Assembly: GCA_013151445.1 (NCBI GenBank)
Contig: JAADIG010000008.1
Span: 1 to 32,859 of the forward strand
DNA: 32,859 nt
Direction of reading: 5' to 3'
DNA from: Actinomycetota bacterium
Lineage (GTDB): Bacteria > Actinomycetota > Acidimicrobiia > Spongiisociales > UBA5794
Part shown: one piece after another, positions 4,526 to 15,401 of the stretch
Layout of the letters: every line of letters begins with the position of its first letter
How positions within the stretch are numbered: position 1 is the stretch's first letter
Notes under the pieces: model-generated
What the model saw: only the letters and a program-made list of their open reading frames with translations
Told to the model about the DNA's origin: nothing
Databases searched by the model: none
Translations under genes and position numbers: made by a program

Positions 4526-5419
4526 ATGCAACAACAAAGATTTGCGTCCATCCGTGAACGGATGGTCGGAGAGACTGGAGTTGTCATGTTGATCGGACCG
4601 CGTGATACGGGGAAAACAACCCTGGGGCGTCTGCTTATCGCCGACGCGCTCGATGCTGGGCTGCGCTGTGCGTTGGTTGACGCAGATACCGCTCGGTCGT
4701 CGGTCGGCCCGCCGGCATGTGTCGGACTCAGATTCGTGTCGTCGTCTGAGGATCTCGACAACATCGCGAAAGCGGATGCCCTGCGCTTCGTTGGATCGAC
4801 CCACCCGCGCGGTGTCGTCCTGCCTCATGTGGTTGCGGTGGCGGCGTTGGTTGCCCAGGCCCGCGAGCGTGCGGAACTGATCGTTGTCGACACGACGAGC
4901 GCGGTTGCCGGAGTAGTTGGGCAAACGCTGAAATACCATCTTGCAGAACTCGCACAACCATCGGTCATCATTGCGCTCCAGCGAGGGACCGAGATGGATG
5001 CGATCGTTGGCATGTTGCGGCGGTTCCTGTCTGCGCGCGTTGCCGTGCTGGAACCCGAGGTTCAGGTAGTGCCTGCCGGGCCTGTTCAAGCAGCGGAAGA
5101 ACTCGCTGCCGCGTTTCGCAGGGAGCTATCACCACCGCTACCGCGGTGGCGTGTGCAGCCAACGGTATTCGCACCGACGCTCCCCGACGGGTTCGAACTG
5201 GAACCTCTCGACGGCACCATCGTCGGGATCCAAAACTCCAGTGGTGAGTGCCTCGGTCTCGGTGTCCTTGACCACGACGGTGACACTCTTCGAGTCGCGA
5301 CTCATCACGGAGAGTCCATGAGTGGGCTCAGGGTCGGGTCGCTCAAGGTGGACCTCACGACGTTCGCCACGACCCGCATCCGGCTACGAGAACTCTTCTT
5401 CGGGCTTTCTGCTTCTTGA
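4526..5419 (+). CDS. Clp1/Grc3-like polynucleotide 5'-hydroxyl kinase (P-loop)
   Basis: The ATG follows GAGGAG at 4513-4518. The 297-residue protein has a Walker A motif GPRDTGKTT (24-32), then VDADTARSSVGPPACVGL (51-68), the counterpart of the Clp1/Grc3 signature DxDxGQSxxxPPG, with Gly-Gln changed to Ala-Arg. FVGSTHPRG follows, matching the family TSPxG segment, and LIVVDTTS is the Walker B strand. The order and spacing fit the CLP1_P kinase domain, which phosphorylates 5'-hydroxyl ends of RNA or DNA. The C-terminal 90 residues look like a small beta domain. The GQ change means activity cannot be assumed. It stands about 120 bp after the channel-like gene, likely with its own promoter. No RNA repair ligase is adjacent. 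Confidence 0.7.
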   Translation: MQQQRFASIRERMVGETGVVMLIGPRDTGKTTLGRLLIADALDAGLRCALVDADTARSSVGPPACVGLRFVSSSEDLDNIAKADALRFVGSTHPRGVVLPHVVAVAALVAQARERAELIVVDTTSAVAGVVGQTLKYHLAELAQPSVIIALQRGTEMDAIVGMLRRFLSARVAVLEPEVQVVPAGPVQAAEELAAAFRRELSPPLPRWRVQPTVFAPTLPDGFELEPLDGTIVGIQNSSGECLGLGVLDHDGDTLRVATHHGESMSGLRVGSLKVDLTTFATTRIRLRELFFGLSAS

Positions 5420-6305: not shown

Positions 6306-6734
6306 TCACCGCGATCTTTCGCGACCCGGTCGGGCGGCCTCCACACACTGGTGAAAGAGACGTTCAACGCCGTCATGGACCGCACCGACGACGACACCAA
6401 GCATGTCCTGATCAACGGAACCAGCGGGAACTCGCCCCGTGAGATAGATGTCATCGCGTCGGTCGAACGAAACCAGGGCTGGCCAGCTCGTGTGGTTGAA
6501 CTTCAGGAAGCGACGATGCAGTGTTGGATCATCGAGACGGCCGAACAGATACGCCTCGAACCGCAGGGTGATCTCGCCACAATCGAACCAGATCGTCGTT
6601 GCCTCGCGACAGTCCTGGACGATGCGCACCCCGCGACGTCCCTCAAGCTCACCCGCCCAGACAATGCCCGACTCCGGGTCGGTCGCCCACGCAGACGTTG
6701 TTGTGGCGACGAAATCCCACAGTGGCCGGTTCAC
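6306..6734 (-). CDS. YbjN-domain protein, last gene of the mshA operon
   Basis: A 142-residue soluble protein starting at a GTG that overlaps the mshA stop (GTGA). Its composition (beta strands with Trp, e.g. TIWFDCGEITLRFEAYLFG, then a helical C-terminus) fits the YbjN / type III chaperone-like fold. The position agrees with established gene order: in mycobacteria a YbjN-family gene follows mshA directly. The molecular role is unknown; YbjN-type proteins are usually taken as chaperone-like or stress-related. Family assignment rests on context as much as on sequence. Confidence 0.65.
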   Translation of the reverse strand: MNRPLWDFVATTTSAWATDPESGIVWAGELEGRRGVRIVQDCREATTIWFDCGEITLRFEAYLFGRLDDPTLHRRFLKFNHTSWPALVSFDRRDDIYLTGRVPAGSVDQDMLGVVVGAVHDGVERLFHQCVEAARPGRERSR

Positions 6735-7954
6735 AGGGCCTTGATCCCGTCATACAACTCAAGGAGTCGGTCCACCGTCTTCTCCCAGGAGAACTTGTGG
6801 GCGTTGGCGATCGCCTGGAGCTGCATGTGGGCATGGTCGTCGGGAGAAGAGAGGGTTTTGTCGATGGCCGCGGCGAACGCACTCGGCGAGTGCCCGTCGA
6901 TTAGGATCCCCGACTCCCCATCGGTGACAACGTACGGAAGGCCGCCGACGCTCGAAGCAATCACAGGCAGACCGCATGCCTGCGCCTCGGCCGCGACCAA
7001 TCCGAACGATTCACTGCGGCTCGGCATCAACAGGAGATCGGCACCGCGGTAGTAGGCGGGGAGGCGCTCGTGGGACTCCGGGCCGGTGAACGTCACGCGG
7101 TCGGCAATACCGAGGTCGGTCGCCAATGTCTGCAGCATGGCGAGTTCACTGTCACCTGCCGGACCGCTCGGTCCGCCGACGATCACGAGACGCACGTCAT
7201 CGATGCCACGGTGTGCGACCTCAGCCGTGGCGGCCACTGCAATGTCGAAACCCTTCAATGCCTGGATACGTCCGACACACAGCAGTGTCGGTTCATTGCC
7301 CCATCCCAAGGTTTGTCGCGCTTCATCCCGGCTACCGGGTGAAAACAGTGTGTGGTCTATTCCCGGAGGACTGATGCACAGGCGTTCGGGGGTCGCCCCG
7401 TAGTGGTCAAGGAGGTCGTCGAATTCATACGGTGTCGAAGCGACAACGCAGTCGGACTGCGCAATGGTGTTGAACTCGATGCCCTTGCGGATCTCCGATG
7501 CCGCAGGTTCGTCATCGCGGCGGTTGACATCTTTGACTCTCCCGAGAGTATGGAACGAGTTGGCCAGTGGGATTCCGAGGCGGTTCTTCAGACGGACGCC
7601 GGTTCTGCCGCTCAACCAGTAGTGGGAGTGTATGAGGTCGAACGTCAAACCCGACTCGTCGATCCAACGTTCAACACCGTCACCAAATTCATCGACGTGC
7701 TGCACCATATCGGCCATCGGTATTGGTCTTGTCGGTCCGGCTTCGATGCGAACGACGGTGTACAGCGGCGACACTTCTGCATCGATCGGCACCCCGGCCT
7801 GGCAGGCTCGTGTGAACACGACCACATGGATACCGTGCTCGGCCATCACCTGGGATAGCTCATCGATGTAGACGTTCATCCCGCCGGCGTTCCCAACTCC
7901 GGGTTGAAGCCGTGGCGAGGTGTGCATGCTGATAACGGCGAGTCGCGAAATCAT
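6731..7954 (-). CDS. mshA: MshA-like glycosyltransferase (mycothiol biosynthesis)
   Basis: MshA transfers N-acetylglucosamine from UDP-GlcNAc to 1L-myo-inositol 1-phosphate, the first committed step to mycothiol, the actinobacterial low-molecular-weight thiol. The 407-residue protein opens with HTSP..QPGVGNAGGMNVY, the MshA signature in the GT4 family. The C-terminal nucleotide-sugar domain has PSRSESFGLVAAEAQACGLPV, the E-x7-E motif. Length and architecture are normal for MshA (GT-B fold, two Rossmann domains). It overlaps the acetyltransferase gene upstream by ATGA and the YbjN gene downstream by GTGA. A different GT4 enzyme is possible, but signature and neighbour both favour MshA. mshB, mshC and mshD are not in the window. 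Confidence 0.87.
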   Translation of the reverse strand: MISRLAVISMHTSPRLQPGVGNAGGMNVYIDELSQVMAEHGIHVVVFTRACQAGVPIDAEVSPLYTVVRIEAGPTRPIPMADMVQHVDEFGDGVERWIDESGLTFDLIHSHYWLSGRTGVRLKNRLGIPLANSFHTLGRVKDVNRRDDEPAASEIRKGIEFNTIAQSDCVVASTPYEFDDLLDHYGATPERLCISPPGIDHTLFSPGSRDEARQTLGWGNEPTLLCVGRIQALKGFDIAVAATAEVAHRGIDDVRLVIVGGPSGPAGDSELAMLQTLATDLGIADRVTFTGPESHERLPAYYRGADLLLMPSRSESFGLVAAEAQACGLPVIASSVGGLPYVVTDGESGILIDGHSPSAFAAAIDKTLSSPDDHAHMQLQAIANAHKFSWEKTVDRLLELYDGIKAL

Positions 7955-9815: not shown

Positions 9816-10361
9816 CTACGAACTTTGGAGTAACTCGTCCACGCTTGTGAGACCGTCGCGGTACCTGCGGGCAAGTTCGTCATTGATAATTTCATGGGCG
9901 GAAAACACTGTCCGCCGATCCTTTGAGACCACGCGTTCGACGGTCGTAAGGCTGCTACGAATCTCTTCGAGCTCTACGTCACCGAGCAGGGGGAGCTTCG
10001 TTAGAAAGTCGTCACCGAGTACACGATCCACTGTGCGGCGACCGGAATCGGGGATCTCGGGAGCGTCGATAGGGAGTGATCGAGCCATCCCGGTGCGCCT
10101 TGGATCTGGCATCTCGCTCGCCAGGATCTCGGGAAGAGCCTCAATGAGGCTGCGAGTTTCTTCGCCTGAGCGTCTTCGGATCTCAAAGTCCAAGAGATCG
10201 AGACGGCCGTGCAGGAGGCGACGGTAGTAGGACAGTTCTGTGTCGAGGTCGTTGCAGAGTTTACGTTTCTCGCGCAGCGAGTCCATATCGGCGTCGGCGA
10301 GTCCTTCCACGAACGCGGGATCCTGCACGGTATCGATTCGGCGTCTGTGACTCTCTGGCAT
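9816..10361 (-). CDS. RsiG-like anti-sigma factor family protein
   Basis: I chose ATG 10361 (181 residues) because GGAG lies six bases before it. Two long helices are predicted, each with an RsiG-type c-di-GMP motif. RsiG of Streptomyces, the anti-sigma factor for WhiG, carries E(X)3S(X)2R(X)3Q(X)3D in two helices. Here helix 1 has D40-S44-R47-H51-D55 within ELSYYRRLLHGRLD, a close match to the family; helix 2 has E142-S146-R149-F153-E157 within VERVVSKDRRTVFSAHE, with Q and D replaced. The protein may bind c-di-GMP asymmetrically or have lost binding. No sigma factor gene is in the window. It is 29 bases after the M23 peptidase gene and 7 before the asparaginase gene. Confidence 0.68.
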   Translation of the reverse strand: MPESHRRRIDTVQDPAFVEGLADADMDSLREKRKLCNDLDTELSYYRRLLHGRLDLLDFEIRRRSGEETRSLIEALPEILASEMPDPRRTGMARSLPIDAPEIPDSGRRTVDRVLGDDFLTKLPLLGDVELEEIRSSLTTVERVVSKDRRTVFSAHEIINDELARRYRDGLTSVDELLQSS

Positions 10362-10390
10362 TACTTGTCTCCGGATGGTGTACCCGTAGG

Positions 10391-11494
10391 CTAACAACTC
10401 GCCCGCAATGTTGGGTACGGGTTCTTCCACTGGCCGCCAACGGCCTGCATCTGGAAGTGGACGTGCGTTGGTGTTGTGATGGCATTTCCCGAGTTCCCAT
10501 TGTACCCAATGAGTTGACCACCGGTAACCCGATCTCCGTTCTTGAGACCCGAGGCATATCCCTCAAGATGGGCGTAGTAGAAGCGCATGCCGTAATCGGT
10601 TGTGAGATAGATCGTCACCCCACCGAGACCACCGGTTCTGAGACGCACGGTGCCGCTGCCGGCGGCGATCACGGGTTTGTTCCTGGCGTTGAAGATGTCC
10701 GTACCCTGGTGAGTACGTCCACCGGAACGGGGGAAACCCCAGTCGTTGATGAATGAGGCACCGGGTAGGGGACAGAAGAAGTTCGGTGTTGCTTCCGGTG
10801 GGAAACCGCCAGCGACACCGCGTTTCTTGGCGGCTTCAAGTACCTTGAGCCTGGCCTGTTCCTTGTTGTAGGCGCTGATCGCCTCGCGGGTTTCTGTGCT
10901 GGCTGACTGGAGGGCTGCGGCCTTGAGTTCGCTGGTCTTGTCGAGGGCGATCACCAGCTCTTCGCTTCGGTTCTGGATCTCCGCAACTCGGAGACGGTCC
11001 TCGTCGAGCACGACTTTGAGCTTGCCCGCCTCGGCGGTGATTGCGGTGTAGCTCTGGAGTTCAGCAATCTCGCGCTCTGCGGCGCGTTCGAGAAGGAGCT
11101 GCGCCGTCATCAGATCTTGGATAGACCCGGCTTCGAGTGCGAGCCCGACAAACGTTGAGTTGGTGTTCGACGTGTAGGACTCGAACAGGAGCGTCTCGGC
11201 GCGATTCTTGAGGATCGACGCTTCACTCTCGTAGGCCCTGATCTGATCGATGAGGCGAGTTGTCTTGTAGGTGAGTTCTTCAAGTTCGGCGTTGATGAGC
11301 AGGTACTCGGTCAGGGCCTCATCGTGACGGGCCTCCGCTTCCTTGTAGTCATCAAGGGCGGTGTGCTCAATATCGCGGGCGCGGTCGATCTGCTCCTGGG
11401 TCTGTGCCAGGGCCCCTGTCGGAATTAGGAGGAACAACGCGAGGGCAGCGGACGCAAGGGCGCGTCCGCGTACCAGGCGAAAGGAGATCGTCAT
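10391..11494 (-). CDS. Secreted coiled-coil M23 (LytM) peptidase
   Basis: From ATG 11494 the protein has 367 residues; upstream in-frame starts would precede the signal peptide and lack support. Residues 1-31 are a signal peptide (ALASAALALFLLIPTGALA, cleavage before QTQ). Residues about 35-230 are a long, Glu/Lys/Ala-rich coiled coil as in EnvC and NlpD-like proteins. The C-terminal LytM domain keeps its zinc ligands: H262 and D266 in HQGTD, and H344/H346 in HVHF, so it should be an active peptidoglycan endopeptidase rather than a dead activator. It is the first gene of the operon leading to mshA and diverges from crcB across a 187-bp gap where a promoter must lie. It ends with an odd Cys residue. 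Confidence 0.9.
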   Translation of the reverse strand: MTISFRLVRGRALASAALALFLLIPTGALAQTQEQIDRARDIEHTALDDYKEAEARHDEALTEYLLINAELEELTYKTTRLIDQIRAYESEASILKNRAETLLFESYTSNTNSTFVGLALEAGSIQDLMTAQLLLERAAEREIAELQSYTAITAEAGKLKVVLDEDRLRVAEIQNRSEELVIALDKTSELKAAALQSASTETREAISAYNKEQARLKVLEAAKKRGVAGGFPPEATPNFFCPLPGASFINDWGFPRSGGRTHQGTDIFNARNKPVIAAGSGTVRLRTGGLGGVTIYLTTDYGMRFYYAHLEGYASGLKNGDRVTGGQLIGYNGNSGNAITTPTHVHFQMQAVGGQWKNPYPTLRASC

Positions 11495-11681
11495 CTGCGC
11501 AAGCTTAGCGATACCGGGTACGAATGCAGGTTCTTCGGGCCGGGGAACAACTACTTCGGCTTTGGCACATTGCCCGATTCCGCGTTCCGGCACCCGCTGG
11601 ACCGGCTCGTTTGGAAGATGCGGGCGAAGAACCGTCAGCGACGGTGATTCTCGGGGACCCGGAGCGAGCTAGCCTGCATCC

Positions 11682-12154: not shown

Positions 12155-13156
12155 CTAGAGAAACCAGCGGGCGGCCATCCAAAATGCGGCGACACCGACG
12201 GTCATCGAGTCGAGGCCTGTGAGGCGACCGGGTGATGTGGTGGTGTGGAGCACCTGATCGGTGCGAATAAGCGAGCCAATGGACCTCCCGGCGATCATGC
12301 CGAGGGCCGTGATGACGGCGACGAGTGCCGCCGCCGGCATCGAAATCCCCTTTGTAAGGAACGTTGAAGCGATGCCACCGATGAGGGCGGCACCGAGCGT
12401 CGCCGTATTGGCATCGAACGTGGAGACCTGTGCAGTCGGGTTGGTCTGACGGGTCGCAATCCAGACACCGAGCCCCGTCAGCCCGGCAACGAGCAGAAGC
12501 ATGCGGGTTTGTTCGAGCGAGGTGATGCGCACCATAACGAGGGACCCGCTGGCCAATGTCCCAACGACGGACAACGTTGCCGTGTGCGAAAGGTTTGCGA
12601 GGTTGCGATGGTTCGACCCGGTCACGGCCCATGCCATTGGCACGATTGCTGCTACCGAGACGGCAACGGCGACACCAACATAACCCCAGGCCCACGCAGC
12701 GTTGGCACCAAGGGCGGAGCCGATCATCGCCGCGGCCACGTTCACCCGTGCACCCCGTGTGCGCATCGTCTCGCTGACATCCCATACCCATCCGAGTACA
12801 CCACCGACTGCGAGGACGACCCATATGCCCGTACTCAATGTCAGGCCGAGCGCAAAGATACCCAGCACCGCGGCGGACAACACACTGTCGAGCGAGGGGG
12901 TGTTCGTCGATTGGGTGAGGGCACCTCCGGACACAGGAGGAATTAGCGCGATTTCGTCGCCGCTGCCTACGCGAGCGTCTCGGTTGGTCGGTTCACCGTT
13001 GAGCCAGGTCTGGGCGGTCGCAAGCCCCGCGAGGAAAACCTCACCGAACTGTGCTGCGGCCTGATCGAGCACCTCCCCGACAGTGTCGGCGTCGATATCG
13101 ACTGAAGATGTTCCTGCAGCCTCCCTGAGGGAAGCAAAGAGTCGTAGGGTCGCCAC
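12155..13156 (-). CDS. MoaD/ThiS-like domain fused to CdsA-like membrane domain
   Basis: The GTG at 13156 has AAGGA six bases upstream. Residues 1-78 are a MoaD-type beta-grasp domain: FASLREAAGTSS, WLNGEP, GDEIALIPPVSGG, with the terminal diglycine at G77-G78. Instead of stopping there the frame continues into about 255 residues with roughly eight hydrophobic helices. Near the end, AGRSIGSLIRTD and SPGRLTGLDSM resemble the CdsA (phosphatidate cytidylyltransferase) stretch PGHGGxLDRxDS, but with catalytic charges lost. No alternative start with a ribosome site lies at the junction. A sulfur carrier needs a free C-terminal Gly-Gly, so cleavage after G78 would be required for that role. The membrane-domain assignment is tentative. 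Confidence 0.65.
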   Translation of the reverse strand: MATLRLFASLREAAGTSSVDIDADTVGEVLDQAAAQFGEVFLAGLATAQTWLNGEPTNRDARVGSGDEIALIPPVSGGALTQSTNTPSLDSVLSAAVLGIFALGLTLSTGIWVVLAVGGVLGWVWDVSETMRTRGARVNVAAAMIGSALGANAAWAWGYVGVAVAVSVAAIVPMAWAVTGSNHRNLANLSHTATLSVVGTLASGSLVMVRITSLEQTRMLLLVAGLTGLGVWIATRQTNPTAQVSTFDANTATLGAALIGGIASTFLTKGISMPAAALVAVITALGMIAGRSIGSLIRTDQVLHTTTSPGRLTGLDSMTVGVAAFWMAARWFL

Positions 13157-13221: not shown

Positions 13222-14460
13222 CTATGGCCGAATCGTTGTCCGAACCTCACCGAAACCGATGCGCGGGGCTCCGCTGTCACCCGAGTGGCCGCGGATCAGT
13301 ACCTCGTCTCCGTCGAGGAGAAAGGACCGCTGGCTCCCGTCGGCAAGTGTGATCGGCTCTGCTCCGTTGTGTGTGATTTCGAGCAGGCAACCCAACGAGT
13401 CGGGGGTGGGGCCTGAAATCGTCCCTGATCCGTAGACGTCACCGGGATTAATGGCCGTACCGTTGGATGTGAGATGGGCTAGTTGCTGTGCCATCGACCA
13501 GTACATGTGGCGAAAGTTGGAGTCCGAGACCCGTGTTCCGTTGAGATCAACGCTGAGCGCAATATCAAATCCACCCTTGTTCGGTGTGGCGAGATGGGGC
13601 AGTGGTGTGGGTTCCTGGTCTGACAGGGGAACTCTGGCGTGCGCGAGGGCTTCGAGTTGCACGATCCAGGGTGCCATCGACGTCGCAAACGACTTTGCGT
13701 TGAACGGCCCGAGCGGTCGGTACTCCCACGCCTGCACGTCCCGAGCGGACCAATCGTTGAGGAGAGCGAGACCGAAGATGGTGTTCTCGGCGATCTCGAC
13801 GGGAATCGGTTTGCCATCGTTCGCTGGGCCGGTGACGAACGCCATCTCGAGCTCGAAGTCGAGTTTCTCCGTCGGGCCAAAAACCGGACCATCGGGGCGT
13901 GGAAGCTGCCCGTCTGGTCGGCGTAGGGCCGTCCCCGAGACCGATATTGTTGATGCCCGTCCGTGATACGCGACGGGGAGTTGACGCCAGTTTGGTAGCA
14001 ACGGTTCGTCGTCGGGACGAAACATGCGACCGACGTTGGTTGCATGGTGAATCGACGAGTAGAAGTCAACGAAGTCACCGACAGCGACGGGAAGATGCAT
14101 CGATACATCGGCCCGCGTTACGAGGGCCGAGTCGGCAACATCCGCAAGGCCTGCCGTGTCGTCGGTGAGGAGATGCGACAGTCGCGTGCGAACACGCTGC
14201 CAGGTGGGGTTGCCGAGAGCGAAGTATCGGTTCAGTGTCGATGCCGCGAACACGTCTACCGGGAGACCAAGCCCGTCGAGCAAGCCTCGTTCGTGGGTCA
14301 CCGCCAGATCAACGATCGCATCGCCGATCGCTATGCCGCAGCGAGTCCCATCCGTGTTGCTAAAGACACCGAACGGGAGGTTCTGAACGGGAAAGTCGGA
14401 GCCGTCGGGGATCGGGACCCACGATTCGAGGGAGGGCTCCAGGGTGGGATTCGGAGTCAT
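13222..14460 (-). CDS. fahA: Fumarylacetoacetase
   Basis: This enzyme hydrolyses 4-fumarylacetoacetate to fumarate and acetoacetate, the last step of homogentisate catabolism. The 412-residue length is normal. It shows the N-terminal SH3-like part and the catalytic domain with DFVDFYSSIHHATNVGRMFR, LPVAYHGRASTI, KLDFELEMAFV (metal-binding Glu) and LLNDWSARDVQAWEYRPLGPF, all highly conserved in FAH. Its ATG overlaps the stop of the upstream gene by ATGA and it is the last gene of the operon. Catalytic and metal residues appear intact. Confidence 0.95.
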   Translation of the reverse strand: MTPNPTLEPSLESWVPIPDGSDFPVQNLPFGVFSNTDGTRCGIAIGDAIVDLAVTHERGLLDGLGLPVDVFAASTLNRYFALGNPTWQRVRTRLSHLLTDDTAGLADVADSALVTRADVSMHLPVAVGDFVDFYSSIHHATNVGRMFRPDDEPLLPNWRQLPVAYHGRASTISVSGTALRRPDGQLPRPDGPVFGPTEKLDFELEMAFVTGPANDGKPIPVEIAENTIFGLALLNDWSARDVQAWEYRPLGPFNAKSFATSMAPWIVQLEALAHARVPLSDQEPTPLPHLATPNKGGFDIALSVDLNGTRVSDSNFRHMYWSMAQQLAHLTSNGTAINPGDVYGSGTISGPTPDSLGCLLEITHNGAEPITLADGSQRSFLLDGDEVLIRGHSGDSGAPRIGFGEVRTTIRP

Positions 14461-15401
14461 GTGGGTCCTTTCGGAAGCAGGCCAAGCGCCCGCAGTTCGT
14501 CGGTAGGCTCATCAAAACTACAGCTTCCGTACGATGGGAATCGAGTCGTGCGAATCCGTTGCAGGGACGGTACGTCGAGGAGGACGTCGCCAACGGAAAT
14601 GCCGGTCATGCCAACGGGGAATCCGCTGTCCGCGGTGACGTCGAGCGCAGCGATGATCGTGTCTCGCGACGCACCAACGTCAGCAAGCGCTACCGCGACG
14701 AGCAGGTTTATGAAACCGTGACGTTGCACACCAAGTTCATGCCAGGTGTGGTGGTACGGATGATGCAGCCCTGCGGTGGCCTTGAAGGGCACCCCGCTCG
14801 CGGCACAACCGATGACGAAGTCGGCCACCTCCGCTGACGACGGAAAGGCCTCGCTCGTTGTGCCGCCGGTGCGCAGTTTCGCTCCGAGTAGACGATGACG
14901 ATCAGCTGATGCCGCGGCGATCATCGGCAGAACCACACCAAGCCTGGCCCGCCATTCAGGAGTGCGAGGAATCTCGAAGAAGGGAACGATCGTGGGAGAT
15001 ATCGCACATACGGCATCGACGAAACCGTACAGCTCTGACACAGAGTCGGGGCCATCAATGTCGACGGGAAGCGGCACCTCAGCAAAGACAAACTGGACTG
15101 CGGAACCCATCTCAGCGGACATCACCTGCGTTGATGCAACAGCGCTTCCGAGGTCACCGTCGAGGATCACAGCTATCGGCCAGGTCGGTTCTCCTCTTCG
15201 CATCGTTGGTGCGAGTACGGATGCGAGTTCCACGAGGCGGCTCGCTGGCACGATAAACCGTGCCGCGATCCAGGAGTCGGGGGATTCTCGTATCGAGCGA
15301 TACTCCGCGACGGCATCGGCCATGGAGAGCGATGCCGGTGGGAACAGGCCGGCGTAGTCGATGAGACCTTCAAGGAGGACTCGGCGAGCGTCAACAAACA
15401 T
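14457..15401 (-). CDS. Conserved protein of unknown function in the homogentisate operon
   Basis: This 314-residue soluble protein starts two bases after the hmgA stop and overlaps fahA by ATGA, so it is made with both enzymes. I recognise no named family. Striking segments are DYAGLFPPA (15-23), KLRTGG (175-180), FKATAGLHHP (206-215) and a His cluster HHPYHHTWH (213-221) that could bind metal. Alternating strands and helices suggest a TIM-barrel-like fold. The operon holds homogentisate dioxygenase and fumarylacetoacetase but no glutathione-S-transferase-type maleylacetoacetate isomerase. This protein therefore occupies the position of the missing isomerase, which is an inference from context only. 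It could equally be regulatory or a hydrolase. Confidence 0.7.
   Translation of the reverse strand: MFVDARRVLLEGLIDYAGLFPPASLSMADAVAEYRSIRESPDSWIAARFIVPASRLVELASVLAPTMRRGEPTWPIAVILDGDLGSAVASTQVMSAEMGSAVQFVFAEVPLPVDIDGPDSVSELYGFVDAVCAISPTIVPFFEIPRTPEWRARLGVVLPMIAAASADRHRLLGAKLRTGGTTSEAFPSSAEVADFVIGCAASGVPFKATAGLHHPYHHTWHELGVQRHGFINLLVAVALADVGASRDTIIAALDVTADSGFPVGMTGISVGDVLLDVPSLQRIRTTRFPSYGSCSFDEPTDELRALGLLPKGPT

Follow-up and report, generated by a model that had tools for sequence, protein, structure and literature searches.

MoeB chemistry needs a free Gly-Gly. How, then, could a MoaD-type sulfur carrier function when 255 further residues follow its second glycine? The question is raised by a gene in the window (the whole stretch of 32,859 nucleotides analyzed here) that joins a MoaD-like domain to a polytopic membrane domain. 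In the encoded protein the Gly-Gly is internal and not a free C terminus, and the free C-terminal Gly-Gly that marks MoaD/ThiS proteins could be attained after cleavage only. Either the carrier is cut from its membrane partner, or it remains tethered to it.

Architecture and distribution of the fusion gene

The gene and its parts are as follows:

12155 to 13156, minus strand: fusion gene (MoaD-like domain, linker and predicted CdsA-fold membrane domain), 333 amino acids plus stop, GTG start
12923 to 13156, minus strand: MoaD/ThiS ubiquitin-fold domain, residues 1-78, ending PPVSGG (PF02597, 45.5 bits; VIA-align match to MoaD 6jbz_B)
12923 to 12928, minus strand: codons of Gly77-Gly78, putative cleavage site after Gly78 (Gly-Gly in 96 of 96 fusions)
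12893 to 12922, minus strand: linker, residues 79-88, variable and predicted to be disordered (column entropy; pLDDT below 50)
12158 to 12892, minus strand: predicted CdsA-fold membrane domain, residues 89-333, nine helices (Z 16.4 to 4q2e_A; hhalign; signatures absent)

The match to PF02597 (ThiS) spans residues 5-78 at 45.5 bits against a Pfam cut-off of 22.5, and all 39 members of the fusion alignment match the same family at E <= 0.1. Against the NCBIfam moaD equivalog (TIGR01682, cut-off 66.15) the fusion scores 46.9 bits and a standalone MoaD ortholog 53.9 bits, both below the threshold. An AlphaFold2 model of the whole fusion, built from ten sequences (mean pLDDT 85), consists of a ubiquitin-like part at residues 1-75, nine helices at 89-332 and, between them, residues 76-87, which include the Gly-Gly and have pLDDT values under 50; the best VIA-align match for the MoaD half is 6jbz_B (Z 13.9, 77 residues). 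The PF02597 match and the minus-strand reading frame bear out a preliminary description of this locus, which had recognized a MoaD-type domain with an internal Gly-Gly at residues 77-78, and the membrane part that it placed after this domain is likewise present in the model, with nine helices in place of the roughly eight it had counted.

The fusion was matched in 58 of 60 relatives, at identities down to about 30% and in records titled mostly as Acidimicrobiia MAGs; the two relatives without a match are 56% and 82% complete. Within a class sample of 296 genomes it occurs in 91 of the 95 genomes of its own order, 88 of them at full length. Two of the three partial matches (G266 and G304) lie near contig ends, and the third (G264) is apparently the same locus as L135, whose reading frame is broken within the membrane domain. 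Outside the order, all matches listed in the class sample end by query residue 99 and so comprise the MoaD part only, and in a phylum sample the membrane domain was matched in 7 of 396 genomes, all from the order itself. The preliminary description had raised the prospect that close relatives would lack the fusion; since 58 of 60 carry it at such low identities, chance or misassembly is ruled out, and an assembly or annotation artefact, for which the oddity of the fusion itself and the single frame-broken record speak and nothing more, can hardly account for a gene found in those relatives and in 91 of 95 own-order genomes from many assemblies. Two observations on the samples may be added. Three records titled Armatimonadetes and Bifidobacterium breve (L120, L165, L169) carry Acidimicrobiia-type MoaD genes and are probably mislabelled metagenome bins. 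Family f12 of the class sample has genomes of about 1 Mb, with neither a MoaD nor a JAMM match among the members listed.

The double glycine and its split relatives

Conservation at the junction was measured in an alignment of 57 fusions, which excludes G036 (matched in two pieces) and the duplicate L059, and in a set of 96 that adds 39 more, picked by place and not by motif, and excludes the partial G264, G266 and G304; the frame-broken L135 was aligned as read and excluded from the structure alignments. Gly-Gly is kept in all 96 aligned fusions, which settles the doubt, voiced in the preliminary description, that the pair might not be conserved. PPVSGG is found in 95, the exception reading PPVAGG. 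Among the 57 fusions, residues 73-78 (PPVSGG) have an entropy of 0, and the adjoining residues 79-90 have a mean column entropy of 3.09 bits, the highest of all regions measured. All four glycine codons are in use at both Gly77 and Gly78 across the 96 fusions and GGAGG occurs at just 21 of the 96 junctions, which rules out the Gly-Gly as a Shine-Dalgarno sequence. Within 12 codons after the Gly-Gly, stops are present in the +1 frame in 27 of 96 fusions (background fraction 0.339) and in the -1 frame in 6 of 96 (background 0.102); release of MoaD by a frameshift to an early stop is unsupported. Because all glycine codons are used and out-of-frame stops are not enriched over background, the alignment indicates that the Gly-Gly is under selection at the protein level, and recoding at the junction is unlikely. 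With an invariant double glycine buried at the join, the carrier is probably cut free before use.

The closest relatives outside the order are standalone MoaD proteins. Among 70 loci of the standalone type, 36 stop exactly at the GG of PPVSGG, 32 carry 1-20 extra residues and 2 run into RsiG. Because the search pattern that located these loci included PPVSG, the motif is not independent evidence there; the lengths and tails are. The two that run on (L183:8001-8720 and L190:1924-2646) represent a second MoaD fusion, in frame to an RsiG-like domain and with PPVSGG kept at the join. At L183 both Pfam domains are over their cut-offs (the RsiG part being PF22802), and RsiG comes next in the conserved gene cluster to which MoaD belongs. 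The recurrent short tails and this separate fusion are what one would expect if MoaD were routinely trimmed in the class. They suggest that MoaD generally has its C terminus trimmed there, which would provide JAMM with a clear substrate, open to testing, in genomes without CysO.

The cluster itself is represented in the window by three genes:

10391 to 11593, minus strand: M23 peptidase family neighbor, downstream, conserved (PF01551; 32 of 36 fused loci examined)
9816 to 10430, minus strand: RsiG-like conserved neighbor (PF22802, 67.1 bits; synteny)
6731 to 7954, minus strand: MshA-like glycosyltransferase, conserved neighbor (TIGR03449, 406.9 bits, under the cut-off of 462.5; synteny)

Genes for RsiG, the MshA-like protein or both lie downstream in 57 of the 70 standalone loci, and because this context is shared, fused and standalone MoaD are positional orthologs. 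Directly downstream of MoaD, 19 of the 70 loci have a polytopic open reading frame, which in several cases overlaps the MoaD stop. Seven of these frames (L136, L154, L166, L167, L173, L192, L199) were too long or diverged at the end and were excluded from a profile; the profile of the other 12 aligned by hhalign to the fused membrane domain with a score of 45.9 (E 7e-6, 200 columns) and to CdsA with 39.1, the best control reaching 25.4. A class search with an alignment of 8 of the 12 retrieved 28 genomes at E < 1e-30, none of them from the order, plus 3 with weaker matches. A MoaD place is available among the matches listed for 21 of the 28: in 20 both genes lie together on one strand, and in the remaining one (G277) they are on two contigs, each near its contig's first base. 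Because MoaD and the membrane gene are adjacent outside the order, gene order and sequence indicate that two separate, often abutting genes became one gene in this order; a single fusion event at the order's base is the probable origin.

A predicted CdsA fold in the membrane half

When the full model is searched with VIA-align, the top structure for the membrane half is CdsA 4q2g_B (Z 16.4); a model of the membrane domain on its own (pLDDT 88) returns CdsA 4q2e_A at Z 16.4 and rmsd 3.9 over 227 residues, the next unrelated structure having Z 6.1. CdsA is absent among the matches listed for Foldseek alone. At the profile level, hhalign aligned the membrane domain colinearly with the membrane part of the genome's own CdsA, scoring 31.5 over 226 columns. 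Among 57 polytopic controls the highest score was 20.5, over 29 columns, and the reversed sequence gave 11.5. The preliminary description had noticed a degenerate CdsA-like end, correctly, and the predicted resemblance in fact extends over the whole membrane domain.

The two proteins would thus share the nine-helix fold of CdsA (PF01148), whereas the catalytic features of the enzyme are missing. The motifs that we took to be CdsA signatures (S-x-[LIVMF]-K-R-x4-K-D, HGG and K[TS]xEG) are found in 0 of 96 fusions, and PF01148 (CTP_transf_1) matches none of the 39 alignment members; an unfused membrane homolog at L138 scores 19.9 against that family, under the cut-off of 24. A normal CdsA is encoded elsewhere in the genome (G000:C3, 151.6 bits), which together with the absent signatures rules out the fusion as the cell's CDP-diacylglycerol synthase. 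The positive-inside rule is partly consistent with the predicted topology, loops 2 and 4 being positive and loop 5 as well. As modeled, the membrane half looks like a CdsA-fold pseudoenzyme that has lost its catalytic signatures and that, it seems, belongs to an undescribed family of such proteins linked to a sulfur carrier.

Partner genes and the fate of the carrier

The window's genome is 98% complete and has no PF02597 match other than the fusion. The same genome has one MoaE (E 3.3e-35), one MoeB carrying a rhodanese domain at its N terminus (PRK08762, 554 bits against a cut-off of 449) and one Prok-JAB protein (G000:C120; 57.1 bits, cut-off 25), whose sequence contains the full JAMM motif, which we take to be E / HxHx7SxxD. 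The preliminary description had advised looking for JAMM-type proteases or MoeB nearby: both are encoded in the same genome and neither is adjacent to the fusion, nor was a JAMM gene found adjoining the fusion in the loci seen. The fusion is likewise the sole PF02597 match in 31 of the 60 relatives (at E 0.01), 22 of which have MoaE, MoeB and JAMM together. MoaE is present in 53 of the 60, and MoeB went undetected in three. JAMM was found in 88 of the 95 own-order genomes of the class sample; it is almost universal in the class, including where MoaD requires no trimming, and therefore its presence does not discriminate. JAMM abuts MoeB in three genomes with no ThiS match but the fusion (G044, G051 and G056).

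We consider it likely that the gene encodes a MoaD precursor that is cut after Gly78, most probably by JAMM, and that feeds molybdopterin synthase through MoaE. The product would begin with the sulfur carrier MoaD, its first 78 residues, and continue into a membrane protein of predicted CdsA fold. A protease, most likely the single JAMM metalloprotease of the genome, would cut after Gly78; the freed Gly-Gly end could then be adenylated and thiocarboxylated by the rhodanese-MoeB, and MoaE would use the thiocarboxylated MoaD for molybdopterin, the membrane domain being left behind in the membrane. Fusions of MoaD to MoaE and to MoeB are already known (PMC11237513). The mycobacterial MoaD-MoaE precedent that the preliminary description invoked is MoaX of Mycobacterium tuberculosis, for which PMC4326299 describes cleavage after Gly82 as needed for activity and the first glycine as required for cleavage. 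In Deinococcus radiodurans, the MoaD-MoaE protein DR2607 is cut by JAMM, a step reported as needed for its activation in PMC8832034. Like the present protein, both have MoaD first and an internal Gly-Gly, and both must be cut after it; there, however, the partner is MoaE, whereas here it is a membrane protein of predicted CdsA fold, with MoaE encoded by a gene of its own. A mycobacterial MoeZR serves several carriers (PMC3227635). No MoaD-CdsA fusion or pair was found in the literature searched, which was covered in part, and we class the fusion as a new form of processed MoaD fusion in which the CdsA-fold partner is new. If this reading is right, the whole order would offer a natural example of a bacterial ubiquitin-like protein that is obligatorily produced as a precursor, as are ubiquitin and SUMO in eukaryotes, and that is joined to an unrelated membrane protein, not to its own enzyme partner.

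A further likeness is to the CysO-Mec-CysM system of mycobacteria, in which a JAMM protein acts on a ThiS-type carrier. The JAMM gene is followed by genes for MBL, RNase PH and Ham1 (G000:C120; L200:1560-4442), an arrangement that resembles the mycobacterial mec region, here minus cysO and cysM. The systems differ in that the window's genome has no CysO and the fusion is the sole ThiS-type protein found there.

An alternative hypothesis, which we regard as rather unlikely, is that some other protease cleaves the carrier. Seven of the 95 own-order genomes carry the fusion but gave no JAMM match, and four of these seven (G014, G023, G046, G262) are at least 90% complete; the paper on mycobacterial MoaX did not identify the protease that acts there (PMC4326299). 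However, the genomes with no JAMM match are all drafts, in 50 to 380 contigs, and both the adjacency of JAMM and MoeB in genomes with the fusion alone and the direct JAMM precedent in Deinococcus (PMC8832034) argue for JAMM.

A permanently tethered module is also unlikely. The ubiquitin-fold domain would then be a non-carrier with a docking or regulatory role on its membrane protein, never cut, like the YukD-like domain of EccD in ESX secretion. That actinobacterial domain, fused to 12 helices, provides a precedent for a ubiquitin-fold domain on a polytopic membrane domain (PMC1779556), and Foldseek weakly matches ESX core-complex chains (6sgz_E, prob 0.75, TMq 0.21); in addition, 27 of the 60 relatives have a second PF02597 match, some weak, that could serve as the working carrier. 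In contrast to EccD, the present domain is of the ThiS/MoaD type with an invariant Gly-Gly and a CdsA-like membrane half, and the neighbors identified beside it are M23, RsiG and MshA-like genes, not ESX genes. A tethered module would have no need to keep PPVSGG invariant ahead of a free linker, and the exact stop at GG in 36 of the 70 standalone positional orthologs speaks against it, as does the status of the fusion as sole PF02597 match in 31 of 60 relatives, including the window's genome, with MoaE and MoeB mostly kept. The preliminary description had offered cleavage and a permanent tether as two options; because the fusion and its Gly-Gly are conserved, and JAMM and MoeB are present in the genome, cleavage is favored over the tether.

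It is conceivable, if improbable, that the MoaD-CdsA pair forms a membrane sulfur-relay or modifier system. On this speculation, the CdsA-fold pseudoenzyme would act as a dedicated membrane receptor for MoaD, fused to it in this order and encoded next to it in others; MoaD activated by MoeB would pass sulfur or itself to a membrane-bound target, and JAMM would be the releasing enzyme. Such a system would be a case of a prokaryotic ubiquitin-like protein acting at the lipid bilayer.

Lastly, the carrier could be cleaved and its main acceptor be something other than MoaE, such as cysteine synthase or another sulfur pathway, which we think very improbable. MoaE was not detected in 6 of the 58 fused genomes, which leaves room for another acceptor; three of the six (G014, G024, G051) are at least 90% complete, each in fact at least 94%, and keep the fusion, and MoeB and JAMM are likewise present in G024 and G051. 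Against this stands MoaE in 53 of the 60 relatives. A role as the carrier for thiazole synthesis is unsupported: the ThiG matches, in 56 of 60 genomes, are without exception partial and mostly cover model positions 165-230 of 247, which we read as another TIM barrel.

Two other genes of the window may be recorded. At 14457 to 15401 on the minus strand, a 314-amino-acid protein without a Pfam match adjoins a fumarylacetoacetase and a probable homogentisate dioxygenase, a name that we assign presumptively, and the trio recurs beside the fusion in several relatives. At 4526 to 5419 on the plus strand lies a CLP1-type P-loop protein (PF16575, 82.9 bits), found here in a bacterium; the family is best known from RNA processing.
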